In this document: piece after piece, positions 21,889 through 59,222 of the stretch
Layout of the letters: the number at the start of each line of letters is the position of its first letter
How positions within the stretch are numbered: position 1 is the first letter of the stretch
From: Sphingobacteriaceae bacterium
Lineage (GTDB): Bacteria > Bacteroidota > Bacteroidia > Sphingobacteriales > Sphingobacteriaceae
Direction: 5' to 3'
Assembly: GCA_947460875.1 (NCBI GenBank)
Contig: CANHGR010000006.1
Location: forward strand, 1 to 64,000
Length of the DNA: 64,000 nucleotides
Position numbers and translations under genes: made by a program
Notes under the pieces: model-generated
Seen by the model: the letters and a program-made list of their open reading frames with translations, nothing else
Database searches by the model: none
What the model was told of the DNA's origin: nothing

Positions 21889-21893
21889 CTATT

Positions 21894-23303: not shown

Positions 23304-23344
23304 TGGCTGCAATTCTTCCCTGCGTTTATGTGCAGGACGATAAA

Positions 23345-26505: not shown

Positions 26506-26507
26506 TG

Positions 26508-27344: not shown

Positions 27345-27401
27345 ATCGAAAAATTAATTATTTGAAATCTTATAGCATGCTGCGCCATCCTGAAAAGCTG
27401 C

Positions 27402-28602: not shown

Positions 28603-28961
28603 ATGATTTTAATTGGTGCGCTAATTTAGCTGAAATGATTATTTATTTTACAATAAATTTAAGCTTGAAAAGATATTAATAATGATATTTTTAGATCAAC
28701 AGCCAACTTAGGCCTTCCTCGCCGAAAAGTATCGTTAGAAACGATATACAAAATTTTAACTTCCATGGAACACTTGTATAGCAATTAACCCCTTTTAGCT
28801 GAATATCAGTCATCTAGCCGTATCAAAATGATTGATTGACGGCTCGTGCGAGCTAGATTCGCTGTCGACATTGTCGTGTCGACAGTTTTTTTTACAAGTA
28901 ATCATTCCTGCAAGACGTTCTATTACCGCTCCTTTAGAAAATTTGATTTTTTTCTCTCCTC
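28603..28961. other. Intergenic region, promoter of uronate operon and possible small RNA
   Basis: 358 bp between the MBL-fold gene and the NTF2-like gene, both leftward. The right part holds an orphan plus-strand terminator (28862-28893) and, before it, short stems such as GCTCGTGCGAGC and AGCCGT/ACGGCT. No ORF of note. The leftward promoter for the uronate operon should lie near 28610-28680. Confidence 0.45.
28862..28893 (+). terminator. Orphan rho-independent terminator on plus strand
   Basis: CTGTCGACA and TGTCGACAG around TTGTCG (perfect 9-bp stem, 6-nt loop), then eight T. No plus-strand gene lies upstream within several kilobases. It would fit the 3' end of a short plus-strand RNA starting near 28660-28800. 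Confidence 0.6.
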
Positions 28962-29840: not shown

Positions 29841-29877
29841 TGCGATTTATCTAAAAATGGCTCTGTTTAAAAACATT

Positions 29878-30960: not shown

Positions 30961-31009
30961 TGTGGTTAGTTTTAAAGGGTAGTTTAGAGGCATTATGGTT
31001 GGTTAGTTT

Positions 31010-31921: not shown

Positions 31922-31946
31922 TTTTTAGTTAAGATTAATTTACTTG

Positions 31947-34019: not shown

Positions 34020-34456
34020 CTATTCAAAAAGAAAGGTCGGTTATTGATCAATATATTTTGCCACGCCTTTCTTGCGATTTAAAGTCCAAGCAGCGCATCT
34101 ATAAACCATTTTTTTGGGTTCCAAGCCTTAATCTATCCCAATCGCATAAAAAATCTGGTATATGAGATTATTAGAAGGAAACTACACAGTCGGTTTTAAA
34201 CCAGCCGGCAATTCAAATCAGAACTTATAAATATAATTAGTTTATATTGGATTGTTACAATTTTACTTGTAGCGCCCGGGCTTTTAATGCAAGTTCTATC
34301 ACTGAGGAATTTTAAATAGCATAGTTTTGCCTACTCGGTAGATTTGATTTTCGCATTGAAAATTGTCTCCTTAGTCTAGGGCAAGTTACATACCAACAAA
34401 AGCAAATTATTAGCCATTCTTGCCGTAGCGTATATCAATCAATCCTAATCTACATA
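34020..34456. promoter_or_regulatory. Divergent promoter region between GH67 and GH97
   Basis: 437 bp between divergent glycosidase genes. It contains GGTTTTAAACC (an 11-bp palindrome at about 34192-34202) and the conserved dyad motif at 34281-34316. No ORF is seen. Confidence 0.5.
34281..34316. promoter_or_regulatory. Conserved dyad motif, copy A
   Basis: CTTTTAATGCAAGTTCT followed by ATCACTGAGGAATTTTAAA. It aligns with copies at 46951 and 58199. The centre TCACTGA is symmetric, and the flanks TTCAA/TTGAA-like mirror one another, though this copy is the most diverged. Lies about 260 bp before the GH67 start and 140 bp before the GH97 start. Confidence 0.5.
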
Positions 34457-43526: not shown

Positions 43527-43635
43527 CTGGGAATAGAGATTTAAGGGAGTAAAGATTTAAGGGACCCGAAAATTTGCGACATGGATTTGAAATTAATCCT
43601 TTTCAGAAACCTTTACACTTCGAAGAAAACGTATA

Positions 43636-43932
43636 ATGTGGAATTACAACTATTATGTATACATAATAACTAATCCGCTAAAGACTGTATTATATACGGG
43701 CGTGACAAACAATTTAAAGAATCGACTTTGGGAACACCAACAAAATCAAGGTAATCCTTCAACTTTTGCCGGCAAATATCATTGTCATCATTGAATTTGG
43801 TTTGAGCATTTTGATGATATTGATCATGCAATTGCTAGGGGAAAAGAACTAAAGGGTTGGCGGCGAGAAAAGAAAGAGATATTGATCAATTCTATAAATC
43901 CAAACTGGCATTTTTATGAGATCGAAGATTAA
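43636..43932 (+). pseudogene. GIY-YIG endonuclease-superfamily gene broken by a nonsense codon
   Basis: A 98-codon frame starting MWNYNYYVYIITNPLKTVLY, with TGVTNNLKNRLWEH, the classic GIY-YIG layout of short UPF0213-like proteins. An in-frame TGA at 43792-43794 (codon 53) interrupts it. The frame continues with full family-like sequence (IWFEHFDDIDHAIARGKELK, then GWRREKKEILINSINPNWHF) to its normal end EIED. One base change (for example TTA or TTG to TGA) would explain the break. Either a recent pseudogene or a sequencing error. Confidence 0.8.
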
Positions 43933-43948
43933 ATATATTCATGCCATT

Positions 43949-44103
43949 TGTCATCCTCCGAAGTAGTCCTATGGACCGACTAGGCAAGAAGAGGGACTTG
44001 GGCGTTTTGTCATCCCGATGAGGCACGAAGAGGGAACTTGGTAAATTGGAAAGAACAGTCGATTAAGCCAAGGTCCTTGACCCTTAGGGGGTTCAAGATG
44101 ACA
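43949..44103. repeat. Degenerate palindromic intergenic repeat
   Basis: TGTCATCC begins two related units (43949 and 44008), each followed by AAGAGGGA-CTTGG-like sequence, and the element closes with GATGACA at 44097, the complement of TGTCATC. Such TGTCATCC...GATGACA intergenic elements are widespread in Bacteroidota by recall. Confidence 0.55.
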
Positions 44104-44128
44104 ACAACAATTTGGCGAGTATGCTCCA

Positions 44129-44164
44129 AACAAAAGCCCCAACCGAATAAACGGCTAGGGCTTT
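44129..44164 (-). terminator. Intrinsic terminator of the 44-58 kb cluster
   Basis: A 13-bp stem (44133-44145 with 44152-44164, two wobble pairs), 6-nt loop, then TTTTGTTT on the minus strand. Lies 22 bp beyond the BASS transporter stop. Confidence 0.82.
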
Positions 44165-44185
44165 GTTGTTTAACCAAATAAAATC

Positions 44186-45289
44186 TTACGCTTCTTTTGG
44201 AGGGGCAGCCTCAAGAGGTTTGCGTTTCCAGTAGGTTGCGAGTAGTGAGCCGGTGATATTCATAAAGGAAGAGAAAATTACCGGAGCCAAGCCCACGGTA
44301 GCCATTTTACCCATTCCTTTAGCAAGACCCGAGGCGAGTCCACCATTTTGCATACCAACTTCAATAGCGATTGTACGGCAGTCGCGCTCTTCCATTTTAA
44401 ATAGACGTGCCGACCAGTAGCCGAGCGTATAACCAAAAATATTGTGCACCAATACTAAGAACATCAGTGCCAAACCAACAGTCAATAAACTATCACGTCC
44501 GGCTGCGGTGATGATCACAATGATACCAGCTATCCCGAACATGGAAATTGACGGCATAATTTTATCAAACAATCCCGCATGGTTCTTTAGTATTTTGTTA
44601 ACGATAAGTCCGGCACCAATTGGAAGAATCACCATTTTAAAGATATCCCACATCATAGCAACTACGCTTATCTCAACGAATTCTCCTGCAAGCAACTTCA
44701 TCAGCAATGGTGTTACGATGGGCGCTAGCAAGGTAGAAACTGCTGTAATAGTAATAGATAGAGCCAGATTAGCTTTAGCGAGATAAGAAATTACATTGGA
44801 AGCCAGGCCATTTGGTGAGCAGCCTATTAAAATAATTCCAGCAGCTATTTCGGGACTAAAACCAAAAGCTGCCATACCCACATTTGCAAGGCTAAAACCC
44901 AGCAGAGGCATGATAATAAAGTGACTTACCACCCCCAGCAATACTCCCTTGGGCGTTTTAACCACACCCTTGAAATCCTGCAGGCTCATGGAAGTACCCA
45001 TCCCAAACATAATTAGCTGGATGAGGGGTACAATCGCTACAGACAATTTAAAATCACCCCACTGAACAAAATACTGAGGGTAGAACATTGCTGTAACCGC
45101 CGAAGCAAATATAATCGCGGTATAGGTATAGCCCTTTAATGACTCAAAGCCTTTGAAGCCAACGGCTATGGCAATAAAAGCAACAATAAAAAACGGTCCC
45201 GAATTTTCAACACCCGAAAAAACAGATACACCGATAGCTGCTATAAAGCACAACGCGGCAAGACCAAGTATTAACTTGAAGATATTCAT
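44186..45289 (-). CDS. BASS-family (bile acid:sodium symporter-like) transporter
   Basis: A 367-aa inner-membrane protein with about ten helices. The family core is clear: GMGTSMSLQDFK, the PNG motif IILIGCSPNGLASNVISYLA followed by LALSITITAVSTLLAPIVTP, and RTIAIEVGMQNGGLASGLA. Bacterial members carry bile acids, pantoate, pyruvate or other organic anions with sodium. As the last gene of the cluster it is the best candidate for importing an acid made outside the membrane. The cargo is inferred, not shown. Confidence 0.88.
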   Translation of the reverse strand: MNIFKLILGLAALCFIAAIGVSVFSGVENSGPFFIVAFIAIAVGFKGFESLKGYTYTAIIFASAVTAMFYPQYFVQWGDFKLSVAIVPLIQLIMFGMGTSMSLQDFKGVVKTPKGVLLGVVSHFIIMPLLGFSLANVGMAAFGFSPEIAAGIILIGCSPNGLASNVISYLAKANLALSITITAVSTLLAPIVTPLLMKLLAGEFVEISVVAMMWDIFKMVILPIGAGLIVNKILKNHAGLFDKIMPSISMFGIAGIIVIITAAGRDSLLTVGLALMFLVLVHNIFGYTLGYWSARLFKMEERDCRTIAIEVGMQNGGLASGLAKGMGKMATVGLAPVIFSSFMNITGSLLATYWKRKPLEAAPPKEA

Positions 45290-45351
45290 ATGTTCAACTT
45301 TTAGTAATTAATGGTCTAAACAGAAATTTTTAATTTCACTTTAATTACCAG

Positions 45352-46647
45352 TTAAGCGAAGAACGGAATGCCCGGCGTTGCATATTTTTTCAGACCCTCC
45401 TCGTTGATATCAACACCGATTCCTGGTTTGTTTAATACCGGCAAAAATCCCTTTTCATCGATAAAAGGCTTATCATGCCCTTCATACTTAACGATTTCTT
45501 TCCATTTAGGTAATGTATCGAATTGGCTTTGCCATTCTAGAATATGGAAATTTGGAACCGCTGCACACACATGAGCTGAAGCCATGGCACCAAGGAATGA
45601 TCCAACCATATGCGGTGAGAATGGTGTATAATAAGAGTTCGCCAAGCTAGCTATGCGCAGTCCCTCTCCAAGTCCGCCGCATTTTTGAAGATCAGGCATC
45701 ACATAATCGACCGCACCTTCTGCTAATAAACGCGTAAACCCATAAGTAAGGTATATGTTTTCGCCCGCACAAATTGGAGTACTCGTTTCCTGCGAGATCG
45801 TTTTATAGACCTCCACGTTCTCTGCAGGAACTGGTTCTTCCAGCCACATTAGGTTTAATGGCTCCATCATCTTTGCTACCTTTCTTCCTGTCGGTGCATC
45901 GTACCGTGCATGCATGTCGCAGCAAATATCGAGATGTGGCCCTATTTCTTTCCGAACAGCTTCCATTGAATTATACATTCTTTCCATTTCACCAAGGCTT
46001 GCAGTCCAGTTCACCCGATCATACCTGGCAGGATCGTTTGCTTCATCAAGATCAAATTTAACCGCGGTATATCCTTTATCTATGGCAACTCTTGCTACTT
46101 TCGCAAACTCTTCAGGTTTAGGGTTGCGTACAGAGTATAATTGAGTATCGCAATAAACTCTTACTTTATCGCGGAATTTTCCACCTAATAATTGGTAAAC
46201 CGGCACACCTAATGCCTTTCCCATAAGATCCCATAGAGCCGTATCAAAAGCACTCATTACAGCCACCGCTACACCCGATTGCGTTCCTCCAAAAGGATTG
46301 GAACGGAATTGTTGAAAAATGGCATTAGGATTTAGGGGACTTACTCCTCTAGCTGCTAATTGATTACCCATGCGTTGAACCATATGGTAAGTTCCACCAA
46401 TGGCATCCACTGCTTCTCCCCAGCCGACAAGACCTTGGTTAGTAGAAATTTTTACAAATAATCCGCCTCCGGAGTATGCGCACTTAACATCGGTTATCTT
46501 TAAATCCGATGGAGCAGAAAGTTGTGATGTACGCTCTTTTGCATCGACTAATCCTTGACCCCATGAAAGTGAAGGAGCCGCTAACAATCCTGCTCCGGCC
46601 AAAGCAGATTTGGATAAAAATGAACGCCGGTCTTTGTTAAATGACAT
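45352..46647 (-). CDS. Tat-exported enolase-superfamily sugar-acid dehydratase
   Basis: A 431-aa mandelate racemase/muconate lactonizing-type enzyme. N-terminal capping domain includes VDAIGGTYHMVQRMG; the barrel shows TAVKFDLDEAND, metal ligands Asp in DICCDMHARYD, Glu in LMWLEEPVPAENV and Glu in PICAGENIYL, and the His base in TPFSPHMVGSFLG. This layout is that of aldonate dehydratases (mannonate/galactonate-like), making 2-keto-3-deoxy acids. Unusually it begins with a twin-arginine-like leader, NKDRRSFLSKSALAGAGLL ending LSWGQ, so it is probably folded and exported. Exact substrate unknown. Confidence 0.82.
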   Translation of the reverse strand: MSFNKDRRSFLSKSALAGAGLLAAPSLSWGQGLVDAKERTSQLSAPSDLKITDVKCAYSGGGLFVKISTNQGLVGWGEAVDAIGGTYHMVQRMGNQLAARGVSPLNPNAIFQQFRSNPFGGTQSGVAVAVMSAFDTALWDLMGKALGVPVYQLLGGKFRDKVRVYCDTQLYSVRNPKPEEFAKVARVAIDKGYTAVKFDLDEANDPARYDRVNWTASLGEMERMYNSMEAVRKEIGPHLDICCDMHARYDAPTGRKVAKMMEPLNLMWLEEPVPAENVEVYKTISQETSTPICAGENIYLTYGFTRLLAEGAVDYVMPDLQKCGGLGEGLRIASLANSYYTPFSPHMVGSFLGAMASAHVCAAVPNFHILEWQSQFDTLPKWKEIVKYEGHDKPFIDEKGFLPVLNKPGIGVDINEEGLKKYATPGIPFFA

Positions 46648-46701
46648 ATAGTTTGAGTTTATATAGTGAATGATAGGTTCTAAATTTTCTATTATAGTTG
46701 T

Positions 46702-46803
46702 CTAGGTGCTTGTGGCTTTTGAAATTTGCTGTGCGAAGCTAACATTAGGCAGCGTGGTTAACGCGGCAAAACCTAGCAAAATTGAGGTAATAATTCGTTT
46801 CAT
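46702..46803 (-). pseudogene. Orphan signal peptide ORF, 33 aa
   Basis: MKRIITSILLGFAALTTLPN then VSFAQ is a convincing signal peptide, but only nine residues follow (QISKATST) before a stop. It looks like the 5' stub of a deleted secreted-protein gene, or an expressed leader. It lies 54 bp before the dehydratase gene on the same strand. Confidence 0.4.
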
Positions 46804-46940
46804 ATGATCTAAAATTGCTATAGTTTAGGTTAGGCGTATTGGTTCGGTTATTTTTTTCCTGTTATAAAATATCACAGGTATTTAAAAAATATTTTAAAAA
46901 TGAATCGGTTTAAAATTGGCAGCGAATACAATACTACTCC

Positions 46941-46999
46941 TCAATCGCTCGTTTTTAATTCAAGTTCTTTCACTGAGCAAATTTGAATATAGCGATTGA
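46941..46999. promoter_or_regulatory. Conserved dyad motif, copy B, inside a 9-bp inverted repeat
   Basis: TTTTTAATTCAAGTTCTTTC then ACTGAGCAAATTTGAA (46951-46986) matches the copies at 34281 and 58199. Here it is also flanked by TCAATCGCT (46941-46949) and its exact complement AGCGATTGA (46991-46999). Lies between the CBM9 gene and the dehydratase gene, consistent with an internal promoter. Confidence 0.5.
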
Positions 47000-47018
47000 A
47001 TTCGCGACTTAACGCTTA

Positions 47019-47813
47019 TCATTCAGCAAATTCCATTATTCCGAACCGGTGTGGCTGATGTACATCCAAAGCGAAAACATAGACTGGAAACAGGGTTGAA
47101 GTTGAACGGCCGCGGTCTTCTACCAGATTCCTGTCTTGTCTTACAGCCTGGAATGCCCATTTTACACCGGCAGCGGGACGAGCAGCACCTGAAAAATTGC
47201 TAAGGGCATCAAGTGGAATTGCAAACTCCATTGTCCATCCTTTATCCTTATCAGTTAGATTATTGATCGTACCATCATACGTTGACTCCACTTGGTAGGC
47301 AGGGTTATAATCTTTAACGAAGAAACTTCTGTTATTGTGATATCTATAAAGCATCACGTAATCATATCTTGCTTTCGTGATGTTTACTTCAAAGCCAAAG
47401 TGAAAACTTAGACTGTCTGGTATAGGCAAAACAAAGAATTCAGCACAATCGTCCAGATATGGCCGACCGTCAAAAGCTGTCTCACGGGAGGTTAAAGACG
47501 TATCCTGTGCCTCATAGAAAAGATATATATTGGTCGCATCCCACATCATTCTAAAGGTAGAGGCTTGCTTATCAACGGGTTTATCGCGTCTAAAAAAATT
47601 GTCGATAGATACGACCTGAGCGTTCTTCCAGGCTGCTTCATCCATTTTGCCATCTACTTTCATAGGCTCTGCGGTCTTGGCAACTTTGTAAATTGGCTGC
47701 TCACCAATCACCAATTGCTTTTCTTGAGCAAAAAGATTGAGGCTAAAAGCTGATAAAAATAAAAAGGGCATGCTTAGTTTGCTAATCATGCCAAGGTTAA
47801 GTGTTGGTTTCAT
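47019..47813 (-). CDS. Secreted CBM9-like carbohydrate-binding protein
   Basis: A 264-aa exported protein (signal MISKLSMPFLFLSAFSLNLF then AQ) that is a single CBM9-like beta-sandwich: VDGKMDEAAWKNAQVV, TFRMMWDATNIYLFYEAQD, LDDCAEFFVLP, FHFGFEVNITKARYDYV, and KGWTMEFAIPLDAL. It has no catalytic domain. CBM9 modules bind sugar reducing ends; stand-alone versions may hold substrate at the surface. It lies 57 bp after the TonB receptor gene, suggesting joint work in capture. Confidence 0.85.
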   Translation of the reverse strand: MKPTLNLGMISKLSMPFLFLSAFSLNLFAQEKQLVIGEQPIYKVAKTAEPMKVDGKMDEAAWKNAQVVSIDNFFRRDKPVDKQASTFRMMWDATNIYLFYEAQDTSLTSRETAFDGRPYLDDCAEFFVLPIPDSLSFHFGFEVNITKARYDYVMLYRYHNNRSFFVKDYNPAYQVESTYDGTINNLTDKDKGWTMEFAIPLDALSNFSGAARPAAGVKWAFQAVRQDRNLVEDRGRSTSTLFPVYVFALDVHQPHRFGIMEFAE

Positions 47814-47870
47814 ATGATTTCGGTTAGTTTTATAAATTTCAAAAATTCCGCAGCGTTAATTCGAGCTTTC

Positions 47871-49922
47871 TTATCCAATCAATTTTATCCCCACAAAAAA
47901 GTTTCTAGGCGCTGCCGTATTAAAAAATCGGTTCCCAAAGGCATTGATATCATTGCCAAGGCTGTATTGTTTGTCTAATAGGTTATCCCCTCCGGCATTG
48001 ATCTCAAACTTGAATCGCTTGCCCACCCTTGATCTCCAAGCAATTTTTCCAGCCAGCAAATGATACGCATCAGCAAAAGTGGTATTGGCATCGTTCAAAG
48101 GGATATCAGAAGTATATTGATATTGGCCGAATAACGATAAGCCCTTTGCAAAATCAAATGAAATGCTGTTTACAAAGTTTCTCTCAGGCACACCGGTAAG
48201 CCTTTTACCGGTAAATACGGTACTGGCAATCTGATAATTATCAAACGTAAAATCATTGAGGGTAATGGCCGAACTCAAGGTCAGATCGCGAAGCAAGCCC
48301 GCATCTTTTGCTATAAGTTTATAGTTAGCCTGTAACTCTATCCCATTCTGTTTTGTGCCACCGGCATTCACAAAATAATCACGATCCGAAGCATTTACTC
48401 TTCTAACAATCGCATTCTGGAGCTTATAGTAAAACACCGAGGCATCTGCATAAAAGCGTTCAGATTTATCTTTTACCCTCAAGCCCATTTCATAATTCCA
48501 GCCAGTTTCTGCTTCGATATCAGCATTGATCTTAGCGTCTGATGCCCGCACTTCCGCAATCGTTGGCGGAGAATAGCCCCTGCTGATGGTGCCTCTCAAA
48601 GCAACATTGCCATTAAACAAATAAGATAACGCCAATCGCGGCATCAATTGCTCTGCAAATGTTCTGGATCCGGTTACGAAAGATTTTGACTGTGGCAGAC
48701 TTTCAAAATCATAGTTAAAGAAGTTGACACTCACGGCAGCTTCAGCCTTAAAATGCTCACCTGCTTGTAAGGATACCCTAGTGAATACAAATTGCTGTTC
48801 AGCTTTTATCCGATCGGCAGCTTGCACAGTGTCTCTAACCCCCGCTTTATTACCGTAATTGATAATGTCTGAGTTGCTGCGCTGATACTCCCAACCCAAG
48901 TAAGCCTGCGTATTGACTGCTTTAGTCTCAATATTCTTCAACTCAAAAAAACTACGCAAAGCGATAGAGTTTTCTAACCTCGTTTCATAATTGGTGATGA
49001 AGGGATTTTCATAGTCGGTACGCATGCCCGAAAGACTGGTCACGTTTGCGATTCGATCTGAAAGCGCGATACGATTACTGGCCCCTCCGAAAAGAGTTTT
49101 ATTATAAATGCCTGCTTTTTGCGCCGCCGCACTTGGCGCAACCGGAGAAGCCGGTCTGGATCCTCTTGGATTAGCAGTCAATTGTGCAAGAGTCAGTCCG
49201 CCGGGAGTTTCATATCCCAGATCACTGTAAAAGCCCGAAATCTTTAATTCATTTCCTTTGCTATACGAATATTTGGTCTGCGCCTGGAAATATTTCCGCG
49301 ACATCGAGCTATGATCTCTGTATCCATCTGCTTCCTGATACTCCTGATTGATCGCATATTGCCATTTGCCGGATGTCTGTTGCAGACTTGCGTTCTGATT
49401 GATCAGGCCATAAGTCCCGGTTTTGAAGCCGACATTAGAACCGTTCGCGGTACCCATCGTTTCGATAAGCACCACCCCACCGGAGTTTGCGCCGAAAATA
49501 CTTCCATCCGGACCTTTCAATATTTCCATGCGTTTTATCCCGGTTGGAGCAATTAAGTTCAGGTATGAGTTACCGCCTGCATCCGTAAAGGGCATCCCAT
49601 CAAAATAAATTTTGATGTTTCTAACGCCAAAGGGCGACCGTAACAAACTACCCCTGATAGACAGGCGATAACTCCCCGGCGAGCGCTCTTCCATCCGTAC
49701 ACCACTCACCGCATTCAACACAGGCACCAATGAAGCAATTGCCTTTTGGTCAATTTGATACTCTGCTATCGCGATAGCTGAAGATGGCGCACTTAATAAT
49801 GGCTGATTAGATAGATATCCATTAATCGTTACCAATTCTAATCGTTGCAGGCTGTCTGTTTGCTGTGCATAACCCTCTGTAATCCCACAACAAAATAAAA
49901 TCCCAAAAAATATCTTCCTCAT
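47871..49922 (-). CDS. TonB-dependent outer-membrane receptor
   Basis: A 683-aa outer-membrane barrel with signal peptide (ILFCCGITEGYAQ). The plug domain has LVTINGYLSNQ, PVLNAVSGVRMEERSPGSYRL, IYFDGMPFTDAGGNSYLN and MEILKGPDGSIFGANSGG. The end of the barrel has NAGGDNLLDKQYSLGNDIN and a terminal strand RNFFVGIKLIG. It lacks the N-terminal extension and about 1000-aa length of SusC proteins and has no SusD neighbour, so it is of the FecA/vitamin-like class. In this cluster it may import a lactone or aldonate, or supply metal for the PQQ enzyme; neither is proven. Confidence 0.9.
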   Translation of the reverse strand: MRKIFFGILFCCGITEGYAQQTDSLQRLELVTINGYLSNQPLLSAPSSAIAIAEYQIDQKAIASLVPVLNAVSGVRMEERSPGSYRLSIRGSLLRSPFGVRNIKIYFDGMPFTDAGGNSYLNLIAPTGIKRMEILKGPDGSIFGANSGGVVLIETMGTANGSNVGFKTGTYGLINQNASLQQTSGKWQYAINQEYQEADGYRDHSSMSRKYFQAQTKYSYSKGNELKISGFYSDLGYETPGGLTLAQLTANPRGSRPASPVAPSAAAQKAGIYNKTLFGGASNRIALSDRIANVTSLSGMRTDYENPFITNYETRLENSIALRSFFELKNIETKAVNTQAYLGWEYQRSNSDIINYGNKAGVRDTVQAADRIKAEQQFVFTRVSLQAGEHFKAEAAVSVNFFNYDFESLPQSKSFVTGSRTFAEQLMPRLALSYLFNGNVALRGTISRGYSPPTIAEVRASDAKINADIEAETGWNYEMGLRVKDKSERFYADASVFYYKLQNAIVRRVNASDRDYFVNAGGTKQNGIELQANYKLIAKDAGLLRDLTLSSAITLNDFTFDNYQIASTVFTGKRLTGVPERNFVNSISFDFAKGLSLFGQYQYTSDIPLNDANTTFADAYHLLAGKIAWRSRVGKRFKFEINAGGDNLLDKQYSLGNDINAFGNRFFNTAAPRNFFVGIKLIG

Positions 49923-49972
49923 CTTTTCAATTCCGATCCGCTCAATCGATCTGTATAATTACAATCAGCCAA

Positions 49973-51910
49973 TTACAAATACTGCATAAAGCCTTCCATA
50001 TTGGTTTTGATCTTGAATACCTTGCTATAGCTAACGATATACAAGGTTTTCATATCCTTATCACCAAAACATAAGCTCACCGGGAATGATGGCAAATTGA
50101 TCATCCCTACAAATACGCCTTTATTGTTAAATATTTGCACGCCATAATAAGTTGCAACATAAAGATTGCCTGCCTTATCGATCGCCATACCATCCGCGCT
50201 CGACGACTTTCCTTTTCTGTCCATCACACTGCCAATTAAGAACAATTTTGCAAACTGTCTTCCATTTTTAATCGTTCCATCCGGGTTTATATCATATGCC
50301 CAAACATAGTTTTCTTTCTGACTGTTAACAGGGTACCATGACTCATCATCATAGCAGTTGTTGATATACAGTGTTTTGCCATCCGGCGATATAATGATCC
50401 CATTAGGCATTGCAAACTCATTAGGCTCAACAATTCGGCTAATTTTTCCTTGCGGATTAACATAATAAACCCCCCTGCCCGGCTGGAATTTAACAGCCTC
50501 CATTGTAAACTGAGGATCCGTAAAGTAAAAACCACCTTTAGAATCAACGATTACGTCATTTGGACCGTCGATTGATTTTCCATCGAATTTATCAGCAACT
50601 ACTCTTACCACTTCGCCCTTGGTTGTCATTTCAACCACGCGATGTCCCATCATATCGCAAACCAACAGATTGCCGTTTTTGTATGGATACAAGCCGTTGG
50701 TCTGCATCTTTCCTTGCGTGATGTTGCGGTAAGTTCCGTTTGGATCTAACTCAACAGTCGAGCTCTTTTTAGGGTCTGCATTGAAATCCTTATCGAAGTA
50801 CATGTTTGAGAAATAAACTTTACCGTTCATCCACTTCGGACCTTCAGTAAAAGTTAATTCCGGTTTAGTTTTCTTTCCGTCTACAACTAATTCAACTTTC
50901 GAAGTAGCAGGGATAATCGCGGTATAGGCTGCTTTTTTTGCTTTTTCTTTCTCTAAATAATCGGGACGAGCAGGCCAAAAGATGTCTAAGGCATCACAAC
51001 CTAAATCGCCGATCTTAGCTCCATGAACCATGTTGCTCGGTATCAACACCGCATCGTCTACCTTCATTTTTTGCTCGGTATCCAACAATATCTCATCGCA
51101 CTCGCCGCGTAACACAAACATCATTTGCTCTTCCGGGTGAATATGGTGTGGGAAAGTCGACAATGGATCCATCGAAATGAAACTTAACTGAGTATTTCTA
51201 CCGGAAATTAATCTTGTATGTGCTCCGGCAGCTATTTCAGTTAGCTGGATCTCATACAAATCATAGATTTTATTCGCCTCAATATTAGGCTCTAGAGCAG
51301 CTGATTCTACATCCTCGATTTCTGCCGGAAGGCTATCTACACCTGCTTTTTGAAGGTAATCGAGACGTAAAGGGCTGTAAATCTCCAATACCTTAGCGCC
51401 TTGTGCACCTGCAGTTAAGCTGCTTTTAGTACCTTTTTGAAGATAAACGAAATCAGTTTTTGGCGTGCCGCTGGCCGTCCCGGTAGGATCTTCTCTCTTA
51501 ACCGAAACCATTGTAGCCATTGCGCCATTTACCAGCTGATTAACAGAACCCTCAACTACAAATAGAAAACGATCTGCAGGTAAAGTTTCTTCTGGAATGC
51601 TTGCATTCGCTGCCAACTGCAATACATTCACCATAGTGCCTGCACCCCAGAACATCTTGGCTTTTACACCCGGATAAAGTTCTGCGCTATCCAATTTAGC
51701 TATCGGCGTTACTTTAGCCGCTTCTAAATTAGAAGGAATGCCAGAAGTTGGCAGACCATCAATTTCTCTAACCGTTAACTTATGTTCTTCAATCAGCGCT
51801 TCGTTAGTTTTCTGCCATGCTGGTCCGGAACCGGTGCTGCACTGAGTTAAATTAACAATGCCTGCTAGGATTAGCACCTTGAAAAGAAATTTACCTAATG
51901 TTGTTTTCAT
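49973..51910 (-). CDS. Lipoprotein with two cupin domains and an SMP-30/gluconolactonase domain
   Basis: A 645-aa protein with a lipobox (IVNLTQCSTG), so lipid-anchored outside the inner membrane. Residues about 55-200 form a first cupin (VNVLQLAANASIPEETLPAD), about 210-310 a second with metal-type His/Glu (STFPHHIHPEEQMMFVLRGE, SNMVHGAKIGD). From about 345 an SMP-30 beta-propeller follows: LTFTEGPKWMNGKVYFSN, LLVCDMMGHRVVEM, SIDGPNDVIVDSKGGFYFTD, FAMPNGIIISPDGKTLYINN, SSADGMAIDKAGNLYVATYY. SMP-30 proteins hydrolyse sugar lactones. The triple fusion is uncommon and would place lactonase beside a sugar-sensing or epimerase-like cupin. Confidence 0.83.
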   Translation of the reverse strand: MKTTLGKFLFKVLILAGIVNLTQCSTGSGPAWQKTNEALIEEHKLTVREIDGLPTSGIPSNLEAAKVTPIAKLDSAELYPGVKAKMFWGAGTMVNVLQLAANASIPEETLPADRFLFVVEGSVNQLVNGAMATMVSVKREDPTGTASGTPKTDFVYLQKGTKSSLTAGAQGAKVLEIYSPLRLDYLQKAGVDSLPAEIEDVESAALEPNIEANKIYDLYEIQLTEIAAGAHTRLISGRNTQLSFISMDPLSTFPHHIHPEEQMMFVLRGECDEILLDTEQKMKVDDAVLIPSNMVHGAKIGDLGCDALDIFWPARPDYLEKEKAKKAAYTAIIPATSKVELVVDGKKTKPELTFTEGPKWMNGKVYFSNMYFDKDFNADPKKSSTVELDPNGTYRNITQGKMQTNGLYPYKNGNLLVCDMMGHRVVEMTTKGEVVRVVADKFDGKSIDGPNDVIVDSKGGFYFTDPQFTMEAVKFQPGRGVYYVNPQGKISRIVEPNEFAMPNGIIISPDGKTLYINNCYDDESWYPVNSQKENYVWAYDINPDGTIKNGRQFAKLFLIGSVMDRKGKSSSADGMAIDKAGNLYVATYYGVQIFNNKGVFVGMINLPSFPVSLCFGDKDMKTLYIVSYSKVFKIKTNMEGFMQYL

Positions 51911-51942
51911 AATTGCTTAAGATTGTTGGGCCTGAGTATATA

Positions 51943-52782
51943 TTACTGACTAACTGTGTTCGTTAATGTTCCAATTCCTTCGATGGTAATGCTCACCACA
52001 TCGCCTACATGAAGCGTAAAATCATCTGTCGGAACAATGCCCGTGCCTGTCATCAAAAATACTCCGGCATGGAAACTCATTTCTCGGAAAAGGTAGCTTG
52101 CCAATTCGGTTAGCTGACGTTTAATTCTGCTGATCATGATGCTATCCGCAAAAAGTTCAACCCCACCTCGTTTGATCGAAATGCTAATCGTTGTATCGGT
52201 ATTGATCGGCTGCGCCGGAACATAGATACAAGGACCAACAGCCGCCGCACCATCGTAGCTTTTCGCTTGCGGTAAGTATAATGGGTTTTCACCTTCAATG
52301 TCTCTAGACGACATATCGTTACCAATGGTATAGCCTTCAATAGTACCTTTTGAGCACATAAACAGGGTCAACTCCGGTTCAGGTACATTCCACTTTGAAT
52401 CGCGACGGATACGAACGTTATCTCCATCTCCAACCACTCTGTAAGGAGCAGATTTGAAGAATAACTCCGGACGTTCAGCATCATATACTTTCGAATAAAA
52501 ATCGCCACCACCGGCATCTTTAGATTCTTCCATTCTTGCTTCCCTGCTGCGCATATAGGTTACGCCTGAAGCCCAAACTTCCTGACTTTTTACTGGAGCA
52601 AGAGATTTTGAAGGTGCTTTCAAATCTGAAATCTGATCCGCAGAACAAGCCTTTAAATCGGCTAATACAGCAGTATGTAAGCCGGAACGGTTGATAAACT
52701 CATCCCAATCACGTCCCTGAAATTGATAAGACTTCCCTGAAAAATTAACTAAAATACCTTCGGCGGTACGATAAATATGCAT
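51943..52782 (-). CDS. FAH-family enzyme (2-keto-3-deoxy sugar acid dehydratase/hydrolase-like)
   Basis: A 279-aa cytosolic fumarylacetoacetate-hydrolase-fold protein. Landmarks are VWASGVTYMRSREARMEES, AERPELFFKSAPYRVVG, the metal ligands in NVPEPELTLFM (Glu-x-Glu) and IGNDMSSRDIEGENPLYLP then QAKSYDGAAAVGP. By recall, the VWA-GVTYMRSR and GENPLYLPQAK signature occurs in 2-keto-3-deoxy-xylonate/arabinonate dehydratases (XylX type) and related hydrolases of non-phosphorylative pentose pathways. Lies 32 bp upstream of the lactonase gene start. Substrate inferred. Confidence 0.82.
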   Translation of the reverse strand: MHIYRTAEGILVNFSGKSYQFQGRDWDEFINRSGLHTAVLADLKACSADQISDLKAPSKSLAPVKSQEVWASGVTYMRSREARMEESKDAGGGDFYSKVYDAERPELFFKSAPYRVVGDGDNVRIRRDSKWNVPEPELTLFMCSKGTIEGYTIGNDMSSRDIEGENPLYLPQAKSYDGAAAVGPCIYVPAQPINTDTTISISIKRGGVELFADSIMISRIKRQLTELASYLFREMSFHAGVFLMTGTGIVPTDDFTLHVGDVVSITIEGIGTLTNTVSQ

Positions 52783-52819
52783 ATAGATCCTTTTTTATTT
52801 TTATTTAAATGATTTGATT

Positions 52820-54463
52820 TTATTCTACCAAGCCCGCACCTTTAGCGATGTTGTTCACTGCCTGAGCGCCTAAGCGTTCTTTTAATTGTGTCAGGTACAG
52901 GCTCTTCGGAGCCACATGCCTGTCGACAGATTCTACATAACCATTTGGCTTGCTTAACTCCTGTAATGCCCGGTTAAAAATAACGGAAGCCACACCAACA
53001 TGTCCGAAGGAATAGTTCTGCGCTGTAGGCGGTCTTTGAATCAGGAAATCGCCCTCACAGTTCCAGAAAACGATGTTAGCACCAGCCCAACCAATCGTAA
53101 TATCTTTCCAAAATCTCGCTGTAAGCGGCGCCTTTACATTATCATAAAGCGCTCCGTTTACCCAGTTGGCATGCGGCTCGCTCGAAGAGAATGGCGCTAC
53201 AGCTTCCGAATTAAAGAAGACATTGCCACTGGAAGAGGATGTTTGCATCACGAATGAATGTCTTCCCTTTTGCGAAAAACACCGTTGAACTAATGATAAC
53301 TGTCCGTTTAGTTGATACGTAAAGCGCCTTGCCCCTGCCCGAACCGAAACCGGCTCCCATGATTCGCAATCCTGAACCGTGATCCATTTGGTGCTCGCCA
53401 TAGTCTGCACAACGCTGCTCCCAAAATGCAGGGCAGTCATGTTGCGCACCCAGCAGTTCTTCGCGTTCGAAATATTGATAAAATTAAAATAGTGGTTCTC
53501 ATCAGAATAATACTCATCACTTTCGTACTGCTGCGCTCCTCCGCCTACAGATCCTCTATCCATGTTTCCATAGTTCCGGGTACGCACGGTTGGGTTATAA
53601 TCTGAAATCCCTCTCAGGTTTTCTACCGCCACTTGTTCTATCCGTCCGGGATCATCATATTTAACGATTTCGCCTCCACCCCAACGCGTTTCAACAGCGC
53701 AGAAAATAGGGGCATCAACCGTAATTGAATTTCCTTTAACTTCTACAATCACTCGGTCATAAGTGATCGTAAAGGGACGCCATCTGTATCTTCCAACACT
53801 TAAAGTGTCCTGACCCAATTCTTTAATCCATGCTTCGTTTCCGTGACGACGGAACAAAATCTTATCCCCTACTTTAAAACCTTTTCCAACAGCAACGTTA
53901 AACGTCTTCGCCCCTACCGGGACGTATTTATCTGTAATTGCTTGTTTAGTTTCTTCTTGCGCCACCCAACCCCCTGCACCTTCAATATTAATCAAGGCAG
54001 ATCTTCTGGCCGCCGCCGGCGGATTAGGCGTCTTACCAAAAAGTTGAGTACCCAGCTCGCTCATGCCCGAACCGCGCAAAACAACACCCGAAGCTTTGAT
54101 ATAGATCGGCTTTTCGAGAGTAAACATTCCATGCATTAGCAGCACCGCACCTCTAAAGCCTGCAGCATCGCGAGGCATCGCAGACACCTTATCGATTGCG
54201 GCTTGGACATTGTCAGAATTATCGCCGGCAACAGGCCAAACGGTAACTTTAACAGGAACTGTTGGGATGATCACGCCAGCGGCTTTATAACCTGCATTTG
54301 AAAAATCGGGAATAACATTACCCAGACTATCGGCAGCATAGACCAATTTGCCATCCGTACCGGGATAAACAAGGGACGTAGTGTTCGGGAAATCCTGAGC
54401 CTTGACAGTCAACAAACTGATCAAGAGCATCATTGCAAAAATAGGATACGATTTAATTTTCAT
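52820..54463 (-). CDS. Secreted right-handed beta-helix protein, unknown activity
   Basis: A protein of about 547 aa starting MKIKSYPIFAMMLLISLLTV (signal ending KAQ); an ATG nine codons upstream is rejected. It has pectate-lyase-type features: NVQAAIDKVSAMP, GFRGAVLLMHGMFTLEKPIY then IKASGVVLRGSGMSE, and later short helical-rung segments (FINISNAKNCWVRNMTALHF, WITVQDCESWEP, SFVMQTSSSSGNVFFNSEAV). No lyase catalytic residues can be assigned. It may be a polysaccharide lyase, a glycoside hydrolase of a helix family or a binding scaffold. Sits 37 bp before the FAH gene in the cluster. Confidence 0.72.
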   Translation of the reverse strand: MKIKSYPIFAMMLLISLLTVKAQDFPNTTSLVYPGTDGKLVYAADSLGNVIPDFSNAGYKAAGVIIPTVPVKVTVWPVAGDNSDNVQAAIDKVSAMPRDAAGFRGAVLLMHGMFTLEKPIYIKASGVVLRGSGMSELGTQLFGKTPNPPAAARRSALINIEGAGGWVAQEETKQAITDKYVPVGAKTFNVAVGKGFKVGDKILFRRHGNEAWIKELGQDTLSVGRYRWRPFTITYDRVIVEVKGNSITVDAPIFCAVETRWGGGEIVKYDDPGRIEQVAVENLRGISDYNPTVRTRNYGNMDRGSVGGGAQQYESDEYYSDENHYFNFINISNAKNCWVRNMTALHFGSSVVQTMASTKWITVQDCESWEPVSVRAGARRFTYQLNGQLSLVQRCFSQKGRHSFVMQTSSSSGNVFFNSEAVAPFSSSEPHANWVNGALYDNVKAPLTARFWKDITIGWAGANIVFWNCEGDFLIQRPPTAQNYSFGHVGVASVIFNRALQELSKPNGYVESVDRHVAPKSLYLTQLKERLGAQAVNNIAKGAGLVE

Positions 54464-54540
54464 GGAGTAATTTGGTTTATAAATTGGCACTCACCGAAAT
54501 CCGAATTCCCTGTTTAAAAATCAATAGTTGTATCAACACA

Positions 54541-54562
54541 AATCGCAGCTGATGCTGCGATT
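54541..54562 (-). promoter_or_regulatory. Intercistronic hairpin
   Basis: AATCGCAGC and its exact complement around TGAT (9-bp stem, 4-nt loop), between the cupin gene and the beta-helix gene. There is no clear T run on the minus strand, so mRNA stabilisation or partial termination within the operon is more likely than a full stop. Confidence 0.45.
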
Positions 54563-54600
54563 GTACCTCGGTTTTCTAGTTTGTTATTTCTTTTAATCAA

Positions 54601-55833
54601 TTAGCGCTGACTATCCTCAGCCGCCAAATCATAGCCGCGCCATTTGAATTCCTTGGCTAGCGCTGTTGCAGCAGGCCATGCAATGTCATGCTCTTTGCTG
54701 GCCACCCATTTCTGCCGATTCGCTTCAGTATCAAAATAGAGCTGCATCTGATAGTTGAAAGCAGTGCCTTCTGCAGAAATACTTTTCGCAACAGTCTCGG
54801 GGAAAATTTTAATCAGCTTAGAAGCAATGTAGCCCGCTTGAACTTTCAATGCTGGAACATAAATTGTAGTATACATTCTCTCAAATGCCGCGGCGTTCTC
54901 TGGCGTAACCACAAAGTCCATTTGCAAAGTCATTTGCCTCGCAGCCTGCGGAGCGCCCGAAACTGGCTGACCGCCGGGTACCGGCTTAGACTTAGCTATG
55001 CCAATCACCAATAATTCTAAATCGTCTGCGCCGTTGTTGGCTATAGAAAGTTTCTCGCCCAACAATCCGTAGAAAGCATCATCAGCCTTAATCGCTACCG
55101 TTTCGCCATCTTTTGTAATGGTACCAGAACCTTTAACAACATAGTAAACTTCCTCAAATCCGTCTAAAGCATGCGGGCCAGCAGTTACTCCTTTTGGTAC
55201 AACAACATTATCTACATGGTTCCAATTGGTAGTAAACACGTCAGGACCCAACACACGGCGATAAAGCAAACCGGTTCCAGGATAAGCAGCGTTATTCGGT
55301 CTTAACATTGCCTTATCCAAACGACCCGATACAAAAGTTGGAATCACGTCTAATGCAGCACCAACACGGGTATCGCCAAGGTCGAAATTATCAGACTTGC
55401 CTTTTACAGCGCTTACCGCAAAATTCATCCATTTAACAGGTTGGTCAGTTGCATTGTAAATACCATGCGAGTTCCCCATTTTACATGGAACCATCGCCGG
55501 AGCTTTGATAGTTGAAGTACGTCCATTAATGGTAAATTGTGCTTCACCGCTCAAAAGCACAAACATTTCTTCAATATTATGATGAAAATGATGACCAATG
55601 CCAGATTTAGCTTCGATCACGCCGGTATGCAGGTATAAGAAGTTAGTGTTCAACTCCGTTCTGCCAATCAGTTGCGTAAAGCCCATTTTGCCCGCACCTG
55701 CATGCACGGCAGTTAATGCGCGGTACTTAGCAGGATCATTCGGAACTACACGTTTTGCTAAAGTCTGTGCAGTCGTCGAAATTGTCGTTGTAAGCGTAAC
55801 TAAAAACAGCGCGAATGCTAATAATCTATTCAT
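54601..55833 (-). CDS. Secreted double-cupin protein with C-terminal ABM-like domain
   Basis: A 410-aa exported protein (signal FALFLVTLTTTISTTAQ). First cupin, about residues 55-150: GIGHHFHHNIEEMFVLLSGE with a His-x3-His-x-x-Glu-like metal site. Second, about 200-270: GPHALDGFEEVYYVVKGSGT. The last about 105 residues (MTLQMDFVVTPENAAAFERM onward, ending DIAWPAATALAKEF) look like a dimeric alpha/beta-barrel (ABM) domain. Enzyme activity unknown; possibly a sugar isomerase, dioxygenase or sensor. Lies 50 bp after the PQQ dehydrogenase gene, so probably co-transcribed. Confidence 0.78.
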   Translation of the reverse strand: MNRLLAFALFLVTLTTTISTTAQTLAKRVVPNDPAKYRALTAVHAGAGKMGFTQLIGRTELNTNFLYLHTGVIEAKSGIGHHFHHNIEEMFVLLSGEAQFTINGRTSTIKAPAMVPCKMGNSHGIYNATDQPVKWMNFAVSAVKGKSDNFDLGDTRVGAALDVIPTFVSGRLDKAMLRPNNAAYPGTGLLYRRVLGPDVFTTNWNHVDNVVVPKGVTAGPHALDGFEEVYYVVKGSGTITKDGETVAIKADDAFYGLLGEKLSIANNGADDLELLVIGIAKSKPVPGGQPVSGAPQAARQMTLQMDFVVTPENAAAFERMYTTIYVPALKVQAGYIASKLIKIFPETVAKSISAEGTAFNYQMQLYFDTEANRQKWVASKEHDIAWPAATALAKEFKWRGYDLAAEDSQR

Positions 55834-55883
55834 GGTTTTACTGGTTTGGTTTTACTGTGAATCAATAATATCCTGGTATAGCT

Positions 55884-58151
55884 TTACTTCTTTTTAGTGG
55901 ATGGCAATGCATAAACTACATAACCCCTTGGCAATGCACCCGGTTTCTTAGAGTGGTTAAAGGTATCTCTGGAAAAATTCGCGGTCGCATTTACAACCAG
56001 GTACTGACGGCCATTAGCTTCATACATCGTTGGCTGTGCATTAGACTCGTAGCTTAAAGTAGTTTCCCATAATTGCTTACCGGTTTGCGAATCAAGTGCA
56101 TAAAGCTTTCCGCCTTTCGCAGTAGCAAACAATATCCCCGAAGAAGTAACAATCATTCCTTTTCTAAGCGATCCAGCGGGAGTACCTACTTTCAATCCTT
56201 TTTCCATGCTAAGCAAATCCTCGCCTACAGGGCTCTCCCATTTGATAATCCCTTTATTTAAATCGTAAGCAACAACTCTAGACCAAACTGGGTTCAACAA
56301 GTTAGGCCAGTTAGTGCCGTAATCTGTTGTGTAACGGTCTTTCGGATGCGCAACCCCATCAGGATAATCGGCCATGGGCAATGCCACCTTTGTATCAGCT
56401 GCAACCGTTGCACCGCCAGATGCTACAACCGGTCCGGCAGGCATTACCGGTCCGGCACCTCTTCTGCCACCGGCAAGTGCAGGCCCGCCCCTACCGCCTG
56501 TGCTTCCACCTAAGTAACGGTAGATTGCTGCAACACGCTGCTCATCAATATGCGCAAATCCGGGCATCTGACCCTTACCTACACTTAATACTGTTTTAAA
56601 ATCATCAAAACTTACACGCTGTCCGGCATTAACCAACGAAGGTGCAATACCAACACCCCTCATGTCTTCGCCATGGCAACCCTGACAAGACGAGGTATAC
56701 AGTGCCTTTGCTCTATCCACATCATCTGCCGACATTAATTCTACAGGCGGCTTGATTCGTTCTAGTTTATAAATAGATGGGTGCTCTTGCGTAATCACAT
56801 AGAACATTCCCTTACTTGGATCTGAAGCGCTATTACCAAAGTTGGCGCCACCTAAAGCTCCGGGCACAGTGAACGTTTCATACTGATCTGAAAGCGGAAC
56901 GTATAAGCCCGACTTTGCAGCATCAATCCTCTTGCCCCATGTTGCTTTTTCAGCGTCACTGAGGTAAGGGTTTAAGTTTTCTTTAGTTAATTGATTCCGT
57001 ACAAACTGAGGTAAAGAAGGAATCGGCTGTGTAGGCCATGCTTGCTCGCCCGGCATCGTACTGGCAGGGAAAGGCTTTTCTTCAATCGGAAAAACAGGCT
57101 CGCCGGTTACCCTGTCAAGCACAAACACCATCCCATTTTTGGTTGCCACAGCAACCGCATCAATAGTTTTGCCCTTACGTTTTACGGTGATTAATTGTGG
57201 TGCAGAAGTTAAATCTACATCCCAAATATCATGATGCACCGTTTGATAATGCCATAGGCGCTTTCCGGTGCGCGCATCTACCGCAACTAAACAATTACCA
57301 AATAGGTTAGCGCCCAGACGGTCACCACCATAAAAGTCGAACGTTGGCGAACCTAAAGGCAGGTATGCAATACCCCTCTTAGCATCAATAGAAATCTCGC
57401 CCCAAACATTAGCACCACCCACATATTTATAAGCATCTTTCGGCCAGGTTTCATAACCAAACTCACCCGGACGTGGCACCGTGTGGAACGTCCACTCCAG
57501 CTTACCCGTAATCACGCTGTAAGCTCGTACATATCCCGGAGGCGAAAAATACCCTTCGCCCGGCGCATTACCCATTACAATTAAATCATCATAAATAACC
57601 CCCGGCATCATCGACTGCATTCTGCGTATCGATGTTACCTCCCTACCCAAGCCCTCTCTCATATCTGTATAACCGTTAGTACCAAAACTGGTAATCGTTT
57701 TACCGGTCTGAGCATCTATCGCCTGCAATGTATTGTTCAATGTAAAAATCAATCGGCGGTCTGTCCTGTCTTTGCTCTCCCAATAGTTAATACCCCTACG
57801 GGTTAACCCCTGCAAATTAGCATGAATCCAAATCTCCTTGCCGGATGTAGCACCAATAGCCACTATAGATGAATTCTTTGCCATCACATACATGACGGTA
57901 TCCACCACAATCGGACTAAAGAAGTTAGGCAGCGAATCGACCGTAGGGTAGACAAAGGCTACCTCCAACTTGCTTACATTAGATTTGTTGATCTGGTTGC
58001 CATCAAAATACTTCGACTGATCGGGCCCACCGGCGTACTGACGCCATGTTTTATAATTGCCTATCGGGAATGTATCAGCGACAAAACTGAGATAAAGAAT
58101 AACAGAAAAAAGGGCCACAAGGCCAACGGTGATTTTAACTTTAGGTTTCAT
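55884..58151 (-). CDS. PQQ-dependent dehydrogenase with inserted cytochrome c domain
   Basis: A 755-aa exported or membrane-anchored quinoprotein (N-terminal helix VGLVALFSVILYLSFVAD). The beta-propeller shows repeats of the PQQ type, e.g. IVAIGATSGKEIWIHANLQG, LQAIDAQTGKTI, CLVAVDARTGKRLWHYQTVH then HDIWDVDLTSAP, and LYALDSQTGKQLWET. A single heme-c site CQGCH lies near residue 490 in ALYTSSCQGCHGEDMRG, with Met in GQMPGFAH as likely axial ligand. After the heme domain is a Gly/Arg/Ala-rich run (about 545-580) before the propeller resumes. It resembles membrane glucose-type or sugar/polyol dehydrogenases that pass electrons to the respiratory chain. First gene of the cluster. Confidence 0.87.
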   Translation of the reverse strand: MKPKVKITVGLVALFSVILYLSFVADTFPIGNYKTWRQYAGGPDQSKYFDGNQINKSNVSKLEVAFVYPTVDSLPNFFSPIVVDTVMYVMAKNSSIVAIGATSGKEIWIHANLQGLTRRGINYWESKDRTDRRLIFTLNNTLQAIDAQTGKTITSFGTNGYTDMREGLGREVTSIRRMQSMMPGVIYDDLIVMGNAPGEGYFSPPGYVRAYSVITGKLEWTFHTVPRPGEFGYETWPKDAYKYVGGANVWGEISIDAKRGIAYLPLGSPTFDFYGGDRLGANLFGNCLVAVDARTGKRLWHYQTVHHDIWDVDLTSAPQLITVKRKGKTIDAVAVATKNGMVFVLDRVTGEPVFPIEEKPFPASTMPGEQAWPTQPIPSLPQFVRNQLTKENLNPYLSDAEKATWGKRIDAAKSGLYVPLSDQYETFTVPGALGGANFGNSASDPSKGMFYVITQEHPSIYKLERIKPPVELMSADDVDRAKALYTSSCQGCHGEDMRGVGIAPSLVNAGQRVSFDDFKTVLSVGKGQMPGFAHIDEQRVAAIYRYLGGSTGGRGGPALAGGRRGAGPVMPAGPVVASGGATVAADTKVALPMADYPDGVAHPKDRYTTDYGTNWPNLLNPVWSRVVAYDLNKGIIKWESPVGEDLLSMEKGLKVGTPAGSLRKGMIVTSSGILFATAKGGKLYALDSQTGKQLWETTLSYESNAQPTMYEANGRQYLVVNATANFSRDTFNHSKKPGALPRGYVVYALPSTKKK

Positions 58152-58198
58152 AAAAGGTCTAGCAAAATGCTGAAGACAATTCTACTCATCAGCATAGG

Positions 58199-58235
58199 CT
58201 TTTTAATTCAAGTTCTTTCAGTGAGGAAATTTGAA
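58199..58235. promoter_or_regulatory. Conserved dyad motif, copy C
   Basis: CTTTTTAATTCAAGTTCTTT then CAGTGAGGAAATTTGAA, about 50-85 bp upstream of the PQQ gene start, a normal operator distance. Copies at 34281 and 46951. Confidence 0.55.
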
Positions 58236-59140: not shown

Positions 59141-59148
59141 TTTGTATG

Positions 59149-59222
59149 TCGGGATGGCAGGATTCGAACCTGCGACCTCCTGGTCCCAAACCAGGCGCGA
59201 TACCGGGCTACGCTACATCCCG
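59149..59222 (-). tRNA. tRNA-Pro (anticodon TGG)
   Basis: On the minus strand: acceptor CGGGATG/CATCCCG with A discriminator, D arm GTAGCGTAGCCCGGTATCGC, anticodon stem CCTGG/CCAGG around TTTGGGA (anticodon TGG), T arm GGTTCGAATCC. The C1-G72 pair is normal for bacterial tRNA-Pro. No encoded CCA. Confidence 0.95.

Follow-up and report, generated by a model that had tools for sequence, protein, structure and literature searches.

In the pentose oxidation of Caulobacter crescentus and Sulfolobus, every step is cytosolic. A route that begins outside the cytoplasm is described in Pseudomonas taiwanensis VLB120, where xylose oxidation by a pyrroloquinoline quinone (PQQ) dehydrogenase and hydrolysis of the lactone both take place in the periplasm, and the cytosol completes the conversion to alpha-ketoglutarate (PMC11252243). 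The enzyme KdaD turns 2-keto-3-deoxy-D-pentonate into alpha-ketoglutarate semialdehyde (aKGSA) (PMC9795676). Here we analyse a minus-strand gene cluster at positions 44186-58151 of a 64,000-nt stretch (the window) of the genome of a Sphingobacteriaceae bacterium (2.2 Mb, 26 contigs). We posit, tentatively and at close to an even chance, that it encodes a xylan-induced, split-compartment Weimberg-type route, probably a Weimberg pathway with its dehydration step moved outside.

Under this proposal, a quinohemoprotein outside the inner membrane would oxidise a xylan-derived aldose, most simply D-xylose, to its lactone, with electrons passing via heme c to respiration, and an SMP-30 lipoprotein would open the lactone to the aldonate. 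An enolase-superfamily enzyme exported by the twin-arginine translocation (Tat) system would then dehydrate the aldonate to a 2-keto-3-deoxy acid, which a BASS-family carrier would import. In the cytosol, a KdaD-type enzyme of the FAH fold would convert this acid to aKGSA, and an aldehyde dehydrogenase whose gene lies at a distance of some 35 kb would finish the route to alpha-ketoglutarate.

Export signals, active sites and a shared cis-element

The features that carry the proposal are as follows.

58171-58235, minus strand: cis-element copy 1, upstream of the PQQ operon
55884-58151, minus strand: PQQ-dependent aldose-type dehydrogenase, membrane glucose dehydrogenase-like, with an inserted heme-c domain and an N-terminal export/anchor segment
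51943-52782, minus strand: FAH-fold enzyme, KdaD-type, predicted cytosolic, without signal peptide
49973-51910, minus strand: lipoprotein with an N-terminal bicupin and a C-terminal SMP-30/gluconolactonase propeller (SGL E=6e-37; Cupin_2)
46923-46987, minus strand: cis-element copy 2, upstream of the relic/dehydratase/BASS unit
45352-46647, minus strand: enolase-superfamily (MR/MLE) acid-sugar dehydratase, Tat-type (MR_MLE_C E=9e-58)
44186-45289, minus strand: BASS-family inner-membrane carrier, PanS-like (SBF E=3e-43)
34252-34316, minus strand: cis-element copy 3, upstream of the GH67 alpha-glucuronidase/glucuronoxylan operon
20180-34019, minus strand: glucuronoxylan operon, by Pfam GH67, BD-FAE esterase, GH10, lactamase-B protein, SDR, KduI, mannitol/uronate dehydrogenase, altronate-type dehydratase, UxaC, sugar kinase and KDPG aldolase

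The step that sets the proposed route apart is the dehydration. The putative aldonate dehydratase retains the active-site motif positions of acid-sugar dehydratases (D244-x-H246, E270/E271, E296, D319 and H346); its best family, NF010624 (galactonate dehydratase), gives 237.6 bits, short of the curated cut-off of 311. A twin-arginine motif (RRxF) stands at the N-terminus of all 30 dehydratases compared, the window's own and 29 orthologues, and TatC is encoded in the genome (E=3.5e-62). Because conserved signal and translocase component are both present, dehydration probably takes place outside the inner membrane.

The enzymes placed upstream of it likewise bear the marks of export. The PQQ dehydrogenase (Pfam PQQ E=1e-156, plus Cytochrome_CBB3) combines an N-terminal hydrophobic export segment with one CQGCH motif (489-493), in line with an earlier note on this DNA that had called it exported and heme c-bearing. 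With its catalytic motifs HHDIWD (306-311) and TKNG (337-340) it appears to be a quinoprotein nearest to membrane glucose dehydrogenases, although below cut-off: its best family, TIGR03074 (glucose/quinate), scores 323 bits against a required 833. The lactonase, which the earlier note had recognised as a lipoprotein while missing its bicupin half, has a lipobox (LTQC, 21-24) and the metal-site positions E356, N451, N503 and D573 in its SGL domain, as in the SMP-30-type lactonase of a Weimberg-type pathway.

For the cytosolic end of the route, the FAH enzyme finds its best PDB match in KdaD of Sulfolobus (2q18, E=5e-53; next best 1e-20) and retains E135, E137, D156 and K174 in common with it. 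Judged by sequence, it is a KdaD-type 2-keto-3-deoxy-D-pentonate dehydratase, an activity of the Weimberg-type pathway. In related genomes its gene is grouped with those for aKGSA dehydrogenase, an IlvD-type aldonate dehydratase and GntP, and in Confluentibacter a GH10 xylanase gene precedes this set; together with the KdaD match, these neighbours point to D-pentonate oxidation. Within the window's own family, five operons have the FAH gene on one strand with genes for an exported RraA-family protein, an exported dehydratase and a BASS carrier, mostly together with aKGSA dehydrogenase or IlvD, an arrangement that ties FAH to the exported enzyme. The FAH gene occurs in 59 of 301 genomes of that family and the lactonase gene in two; FAH orthologues (at least 50% identity) are found in most of 31 lactonase-bearing genomes, a contrast that is suggestive only, since the genome sets are not taxonomy-matched. 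As for the last step, this genome holds only two aldehyde dehydrogenases, one of which (C6:92787) resembles 2,5-dioxovalerate dehydrogenases, its best family, at a score below cut-off; homologues of this putative aKGSA dehydrogenase are linked to the FAH gene in relatives.

The carrier would join the two compartments. Its matches to the PanS pantoate transporter family NF047939 (227.6 bits, curated cut-off 400) and to TIGR00841 both fall below cut-off, and its proposed cargo comes from neighbouring genes: in 19 of 29 loci a BASS gene stands no more than 10 kb from the dehydratase gene and on its strand, and in one relative (L110) a single strand reads dehydratase homologue (35%), RraA, SnoaL, BASS, KdgK, KdpgA, an order that fits import of a 2-keto-3-deoxy acid. 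At L110, and at a further locus (L104), we also observe a dehydratase homologue, an exported RraA and a SnoaL-type gene ahead of genes for KDG kinase and KDPG aldolase; in L110 BASS lies between the two groups. This set is a possible hexonate version of the dehydratase-RraA module.

The link to xylan comes from a 65-bp stretch that aligns ungapped at three upstream sites, with 39 positions identical in all three; copies 2 and 3 match copy 1 at 51 and 44 of the 65 positions, respectively. The core found zero matches in 100 shuffles and the composite zero in 3 Mb of simulated sequence, and no further copy turned up in 2.16 Mb of loci examined, about 150 kb of them from this genome. The operon behind copy 3 is headed by GH67 and looks complete, with glucuronate catabolism through KDPG aldolase. 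The simplest reading of the shared element is a putative common regulator that senses glucuronoxylan or its sugars. Its presence at both the cluster and the GH67 operon therefore implicates a xylan sugar as the substrate, most simply D-xylose, and xylan as the likely inducer.

PQQ supply and competing readings

Several observations weigh against the proposed route. Alternative means of using pentoses and aldonates are encoded in this genome: a locus at 123-128 kb of contig C6 groups an IlvD-type aldonate dehydratase with the permease GntP, a KDPG-type aldolase and a kinase-like gene, so that the aldonate could be imported and then dehydrated inside; xylose isomerase is present; and a third, separate and cytosolic oxidative set at 85-94 kb of C6 (L045:1598-10334) comprises a rhamnonate/arabinonate-like enolase-superfamily dehydratase, an SDR, an AraD1-type FAH protein, a GH3 xylosidase, an MFS carrier and an aKGSA-type dehydrogenase. 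Given the aldonate dehydratase-GntP locus and the isomerase, the outside route would not be obligatory. In most genomes, moreover, the FAH gene neighbours IlvD and GntP, that is, a cytosolic route; the most constant partner of the dehydratase elsewhere is an exported RraA, not FAH; the family matches of the dehydratase favour hexonates (galactonate/gluconate), every one of them below cut-off; and genes for PQQ synthesis were not found in the genome. Two expectations, that the exported dehydratase has no competitor here and that xylose isomerase is absent, were rejected once the IlvD-type enzyme and the isomerase gene were found.

The lack of PQQ synthesis genes means that PQQ must be scavenged. 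No PqqD was found in the genome in a search whose positive controls matched; PqqC gave no match either, which is uninformative since its control also gave none. The candidate importer is the following.

47871-49922, minus strand: TonB-dependent receptor (best PDB match PqqU, E=4e-26)

PqqU is the nearest characterised relative of this receptor, both in the PDB and among plasmid-borne TonB receptors; against NF041535 the receptor scores 152 bits for a cut-off of 1200. The signature of PqqU consists of an aromatic Y99, R304 and R365 (PMC12124388). Like PqqU, the window's protein is a TonB receptor with an aromatic residue (F98) at the Y99 position and an arginine (R301) at R304; unlike PqqU, it has isoleucine (I351) in place of R365 in the multiple alignment (T338 in the pairwise one), and K274 is not conserved either. 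Membership in PqqU was not adopted, because R365 is missing. The receptor may import PQQ in a divergent manner, or import something else. That it supplies the dehydrogenase with PQQ, making the operon a unit of cofactor scavenging and oxidation, is possible, at somewhat less than an even chance; this is a claim about a single gene, compatible with the other readings, and the absence of PqqD and the adjacency of pqqU to a PQQ dehydrogenase gene in Rahnella speak for it.

Among rival readings of the pathway itself, the least improbable keeps only oxidation and lactone hydrolysis outside, as in Pseudomonas: GntP would import the aldonate, the IlvD-type enzyme would dehydrate it in the cytosol and FAH would finish, while the exported dehydratase and BASS would serve another sugar acid. 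The GntP-IlvD locus of this genome, the operons of relatives that unite FAH, IlvD, GntP and aKGSA dehydrogenase, and a lactonase gene divergent from IlvD-GntP in one genome (G130) all fit it, and it has a precedent (PMC11252243). We nevertheless hold it rather unlikely, since the cis-element and the place in the cluster belong to the dehydratase-BASS unit and not to IlvD-GntP, and since the five relatives described above carry FAH on the strand of the exported dehydratase and BASS genes.

A second alternative starts from the constancy of RraA. In 28 of the 29 comparison loci as scored, the dehydratase has as its immediate same-strand neighbour a signal-peptide RraA-family gene, with a G-x-x-RD motif and a match to PF03737; at the 29th (L067) RraA is present also, but a mis-set start lets the two genes overlap and hid it from the scoring. 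An unselected sample of 395 genomes of the class contributed nine of the 29 loci; ten of its genomes encode the dehydratase, this one included, and RraA stands beside it in all nine others. In the cluster itself a relic is left.

46702-46803, minus strand: relic of an exported RraA/aldolase-like gene (signal peptide and QQISK, then a stop)

Located in a gap of 371 nt, the relic reads MKRIITSILLGFAALTTLPNVSFAQQISKATST up to its stop and has the QQISK start of the dehydratase-linked RraA type. The sole intact RraA of this genome, on contig C16, is of another subtype: its identity is 78-82% to copies that neighbour beta-helix genes but only about 40% to the dehydratase-linked type. At L050:9199-10158, on a contig other than the window's, the intact exported RraA-like gene of this beta-helix-associated kind stands alone.

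On this alternative, the ancestral route would be Dahms-like and extracytoplasmic: after the exported dehydratase, the exported RraA-type aldolase would release pyruvate and an aldehyde outside, BASS would import pyruvate, and in this genome FAH would have taken over after the loss of RraA. The relic, the near-constant RraA neighbour and the frequent nearby BASS gene all agree with it; yet the literature found gives no RraA-family activity on keto-deoxy sugar acids, several dehydratase-RraA pairs have no BASS within their flanks, and the KDG kinase and KDPG aldolase after BASS in L110 point to import of the uncut acid, so that we rate it as quite improbable. A version for the Bacteroidota at large, in which a Tat-exported dehydratase and an RraA-type aldolase, exported as well, would make up a non-phosphorylative sugar-acid pathway wholly outside the cytoplasm, releasing pyruvate and aldehyde for BASS-type import, while here that aldolase would have decayed, leaving the 2-keto-3-deoxy acid to be imported uncut for use by the KdaD enzyme, we consider unlikely. 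The conserved pair of exported dehydratase and RraA is an uncharacterised module within reach of simple assays. Finally, a reading in which the substrate is a hexose or uronate, for instance galactose by way of galactonate, and FAH is promiscuous or a bystander would suit the galactonate/gluconate dehydratases as best families and the IlvD-type dehydratase and KDPG/KDPGal-type aldolase elsewhere on the contig, but is very improbable in view of the specifically KdaD-like FAH enzyme and the cis-element shared with glucuronoxylan genes.

Set against these alternatives, the split-compartment Weimberg-type route, with carbon flowing from exported to cytosolic enzymes, remains the reading we prefer. 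The earlier note had inferred oxidation, hydrolysis and dehydration outside followed by import of a keto-deoxy acid; the comparison partly supports this, through the KdaD-type FAH enzyme in aldonate-oxidation operons, the conserved Tat signal, the shared cis-element, the position of BASS near the dehydratase and the L110 order, and gives no ground for taking the route as exclusive in the face of the GntP/IlvD route and the xylose isomerase.

Cluster layout and accessory genes

The remaining features of the cluster, of which the earlier note had left out the three proteins below and the TonB receptor, are these.

54601-55833, minus strand: exported bicupin with a C-terminal domain (Cupin_2 twice)
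52820-54490, minus strand: exported right-handed beta-helix protein, polysaccharide lyase/depolymerase-like, of a conserved family (63-77% identity)
47019-47813, minus strand: exported CBM9-like protein (PF06452 E=1.5e-12)
44128-44165, minus strand: intrinsic terminator after the BASS gene (AAGCCC...GGGCTTTTGTTT stem-loop, then a T run; fold z=-5.95)

Nine open reading frames fill the cluster on the minus strand, in the order of transcription PQQ dehydrogenase with heme c, bicupin, beta-helix protein, FAH enzyme, bicupin-SMP30 lipoprotein, TonB receptor, CBM9 protein, dehydratase and BASS. The five gene types named in the earlier note are all borne out as intact frames, the BASS and FAH genes matching their own Pfam models (SBF and FAH) and the dehydratase having its twin-arginine signal. 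Location, common strand and single strong terminator also stand; the short gaps (32-110 nt) hold except for the 371 nt between the CBM9 and dehydratase genes. As that gap contains the second copy of the upstream element and the gene relic, the "one long cluster" is probably not a single unit; it more likely represents two co-regulated transcription units. A scan for sigma-70 promoters and terminators gave no excess over shuffled sequence; Bacteroidota promoters fall outside its scope.

The SGL, PQQ dehydrogenase, bicupin, beta-helix, dehydratase and BASS genes co-occur in varying subsets, more than by chance, at 39 loci of diverse Bacteroidota, which are those holding close relatives of the window's lactonase; these loci often also hold esterases, GH43, GH51 or SusC/D genes. 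The bicupin gene adjoins the PQQ dehydrogenase gene in most of the loci containing both. A second quinoprotein dehydrogenase, 59% identical to the window's, lies elsewhere with a Tat-type and another exported protein (L046:2637-7907), in a set divergent from D-threonate kinase and PdxA-like genes. The beta-helix protein has no Pfam match; its AlphaFold2 model has a mean pLDDT of 63, with low confidence for much of the chain, and its top Foldseek matches are capsule lyases and tailspikes (E about 1e-10, with low TM-scores), so that the model indicates only a fold resembling polysaccharide lyases.

Around the cluster we note a tRNA-Pro (TGG) upstream at 59148-59222, PorP/SprF and CHU_C genes at 59.7-62.2 kb, which are marks of a Bacteroidota genome, and a plus-strand frame at 43560-43960 that by eye is GIY-YIG nuclease-like and broken by a stop.

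Relation to described pathways

The earlier note knew of no described pathway laid out in this way. Outside oxidation and hydrolysis of xylose being already known from Pseudomonas (PMC11252243), what would be new here is only the extracytoplasmic dehydration and the import of the keto-deoxy acid. In the open-access literature, the only literature covered and therefore weak evidence, we found no exported RraA, no exported enolase-superfamily dehydratase and no extracytoplasmic 2-keto-3-deoxy acid import described, nor any cluster that unites a conserved exported dehydratase, a BASS carrier and a KdaD-type enzyme. If true, the proposal would tie xylan digestion in Bacteroidota to direct extracytoplasmic sugar oxidation, reliant on scavenged PQQ.

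The predicted route resembles that of P. taiwanensis VLB120 in PQQ-dependent oxidation and lactone hydrolysis outside and in its cytosolic finish; there, in contrast, the aldonate is imported by GntP/MFS carriers and dehydrated inside (PMC11252243), whereas here the clustered dehydratase is predicted to be exported and the clustered carrier is of the BASS family. With the Weimberg pathway of C. crescentus and the pentose oxidation of Sulfolobus the cluster shares an SMP-30 lactonase and a KdaD-type FAH enzyme, and the archaeal pentonate dehydratases are likewise of the enolase superfamily (PMC9795676); unlike the quinoprotein encoded here, the dehydrogenase of those routes is a soluble NAD(P) enzyme.

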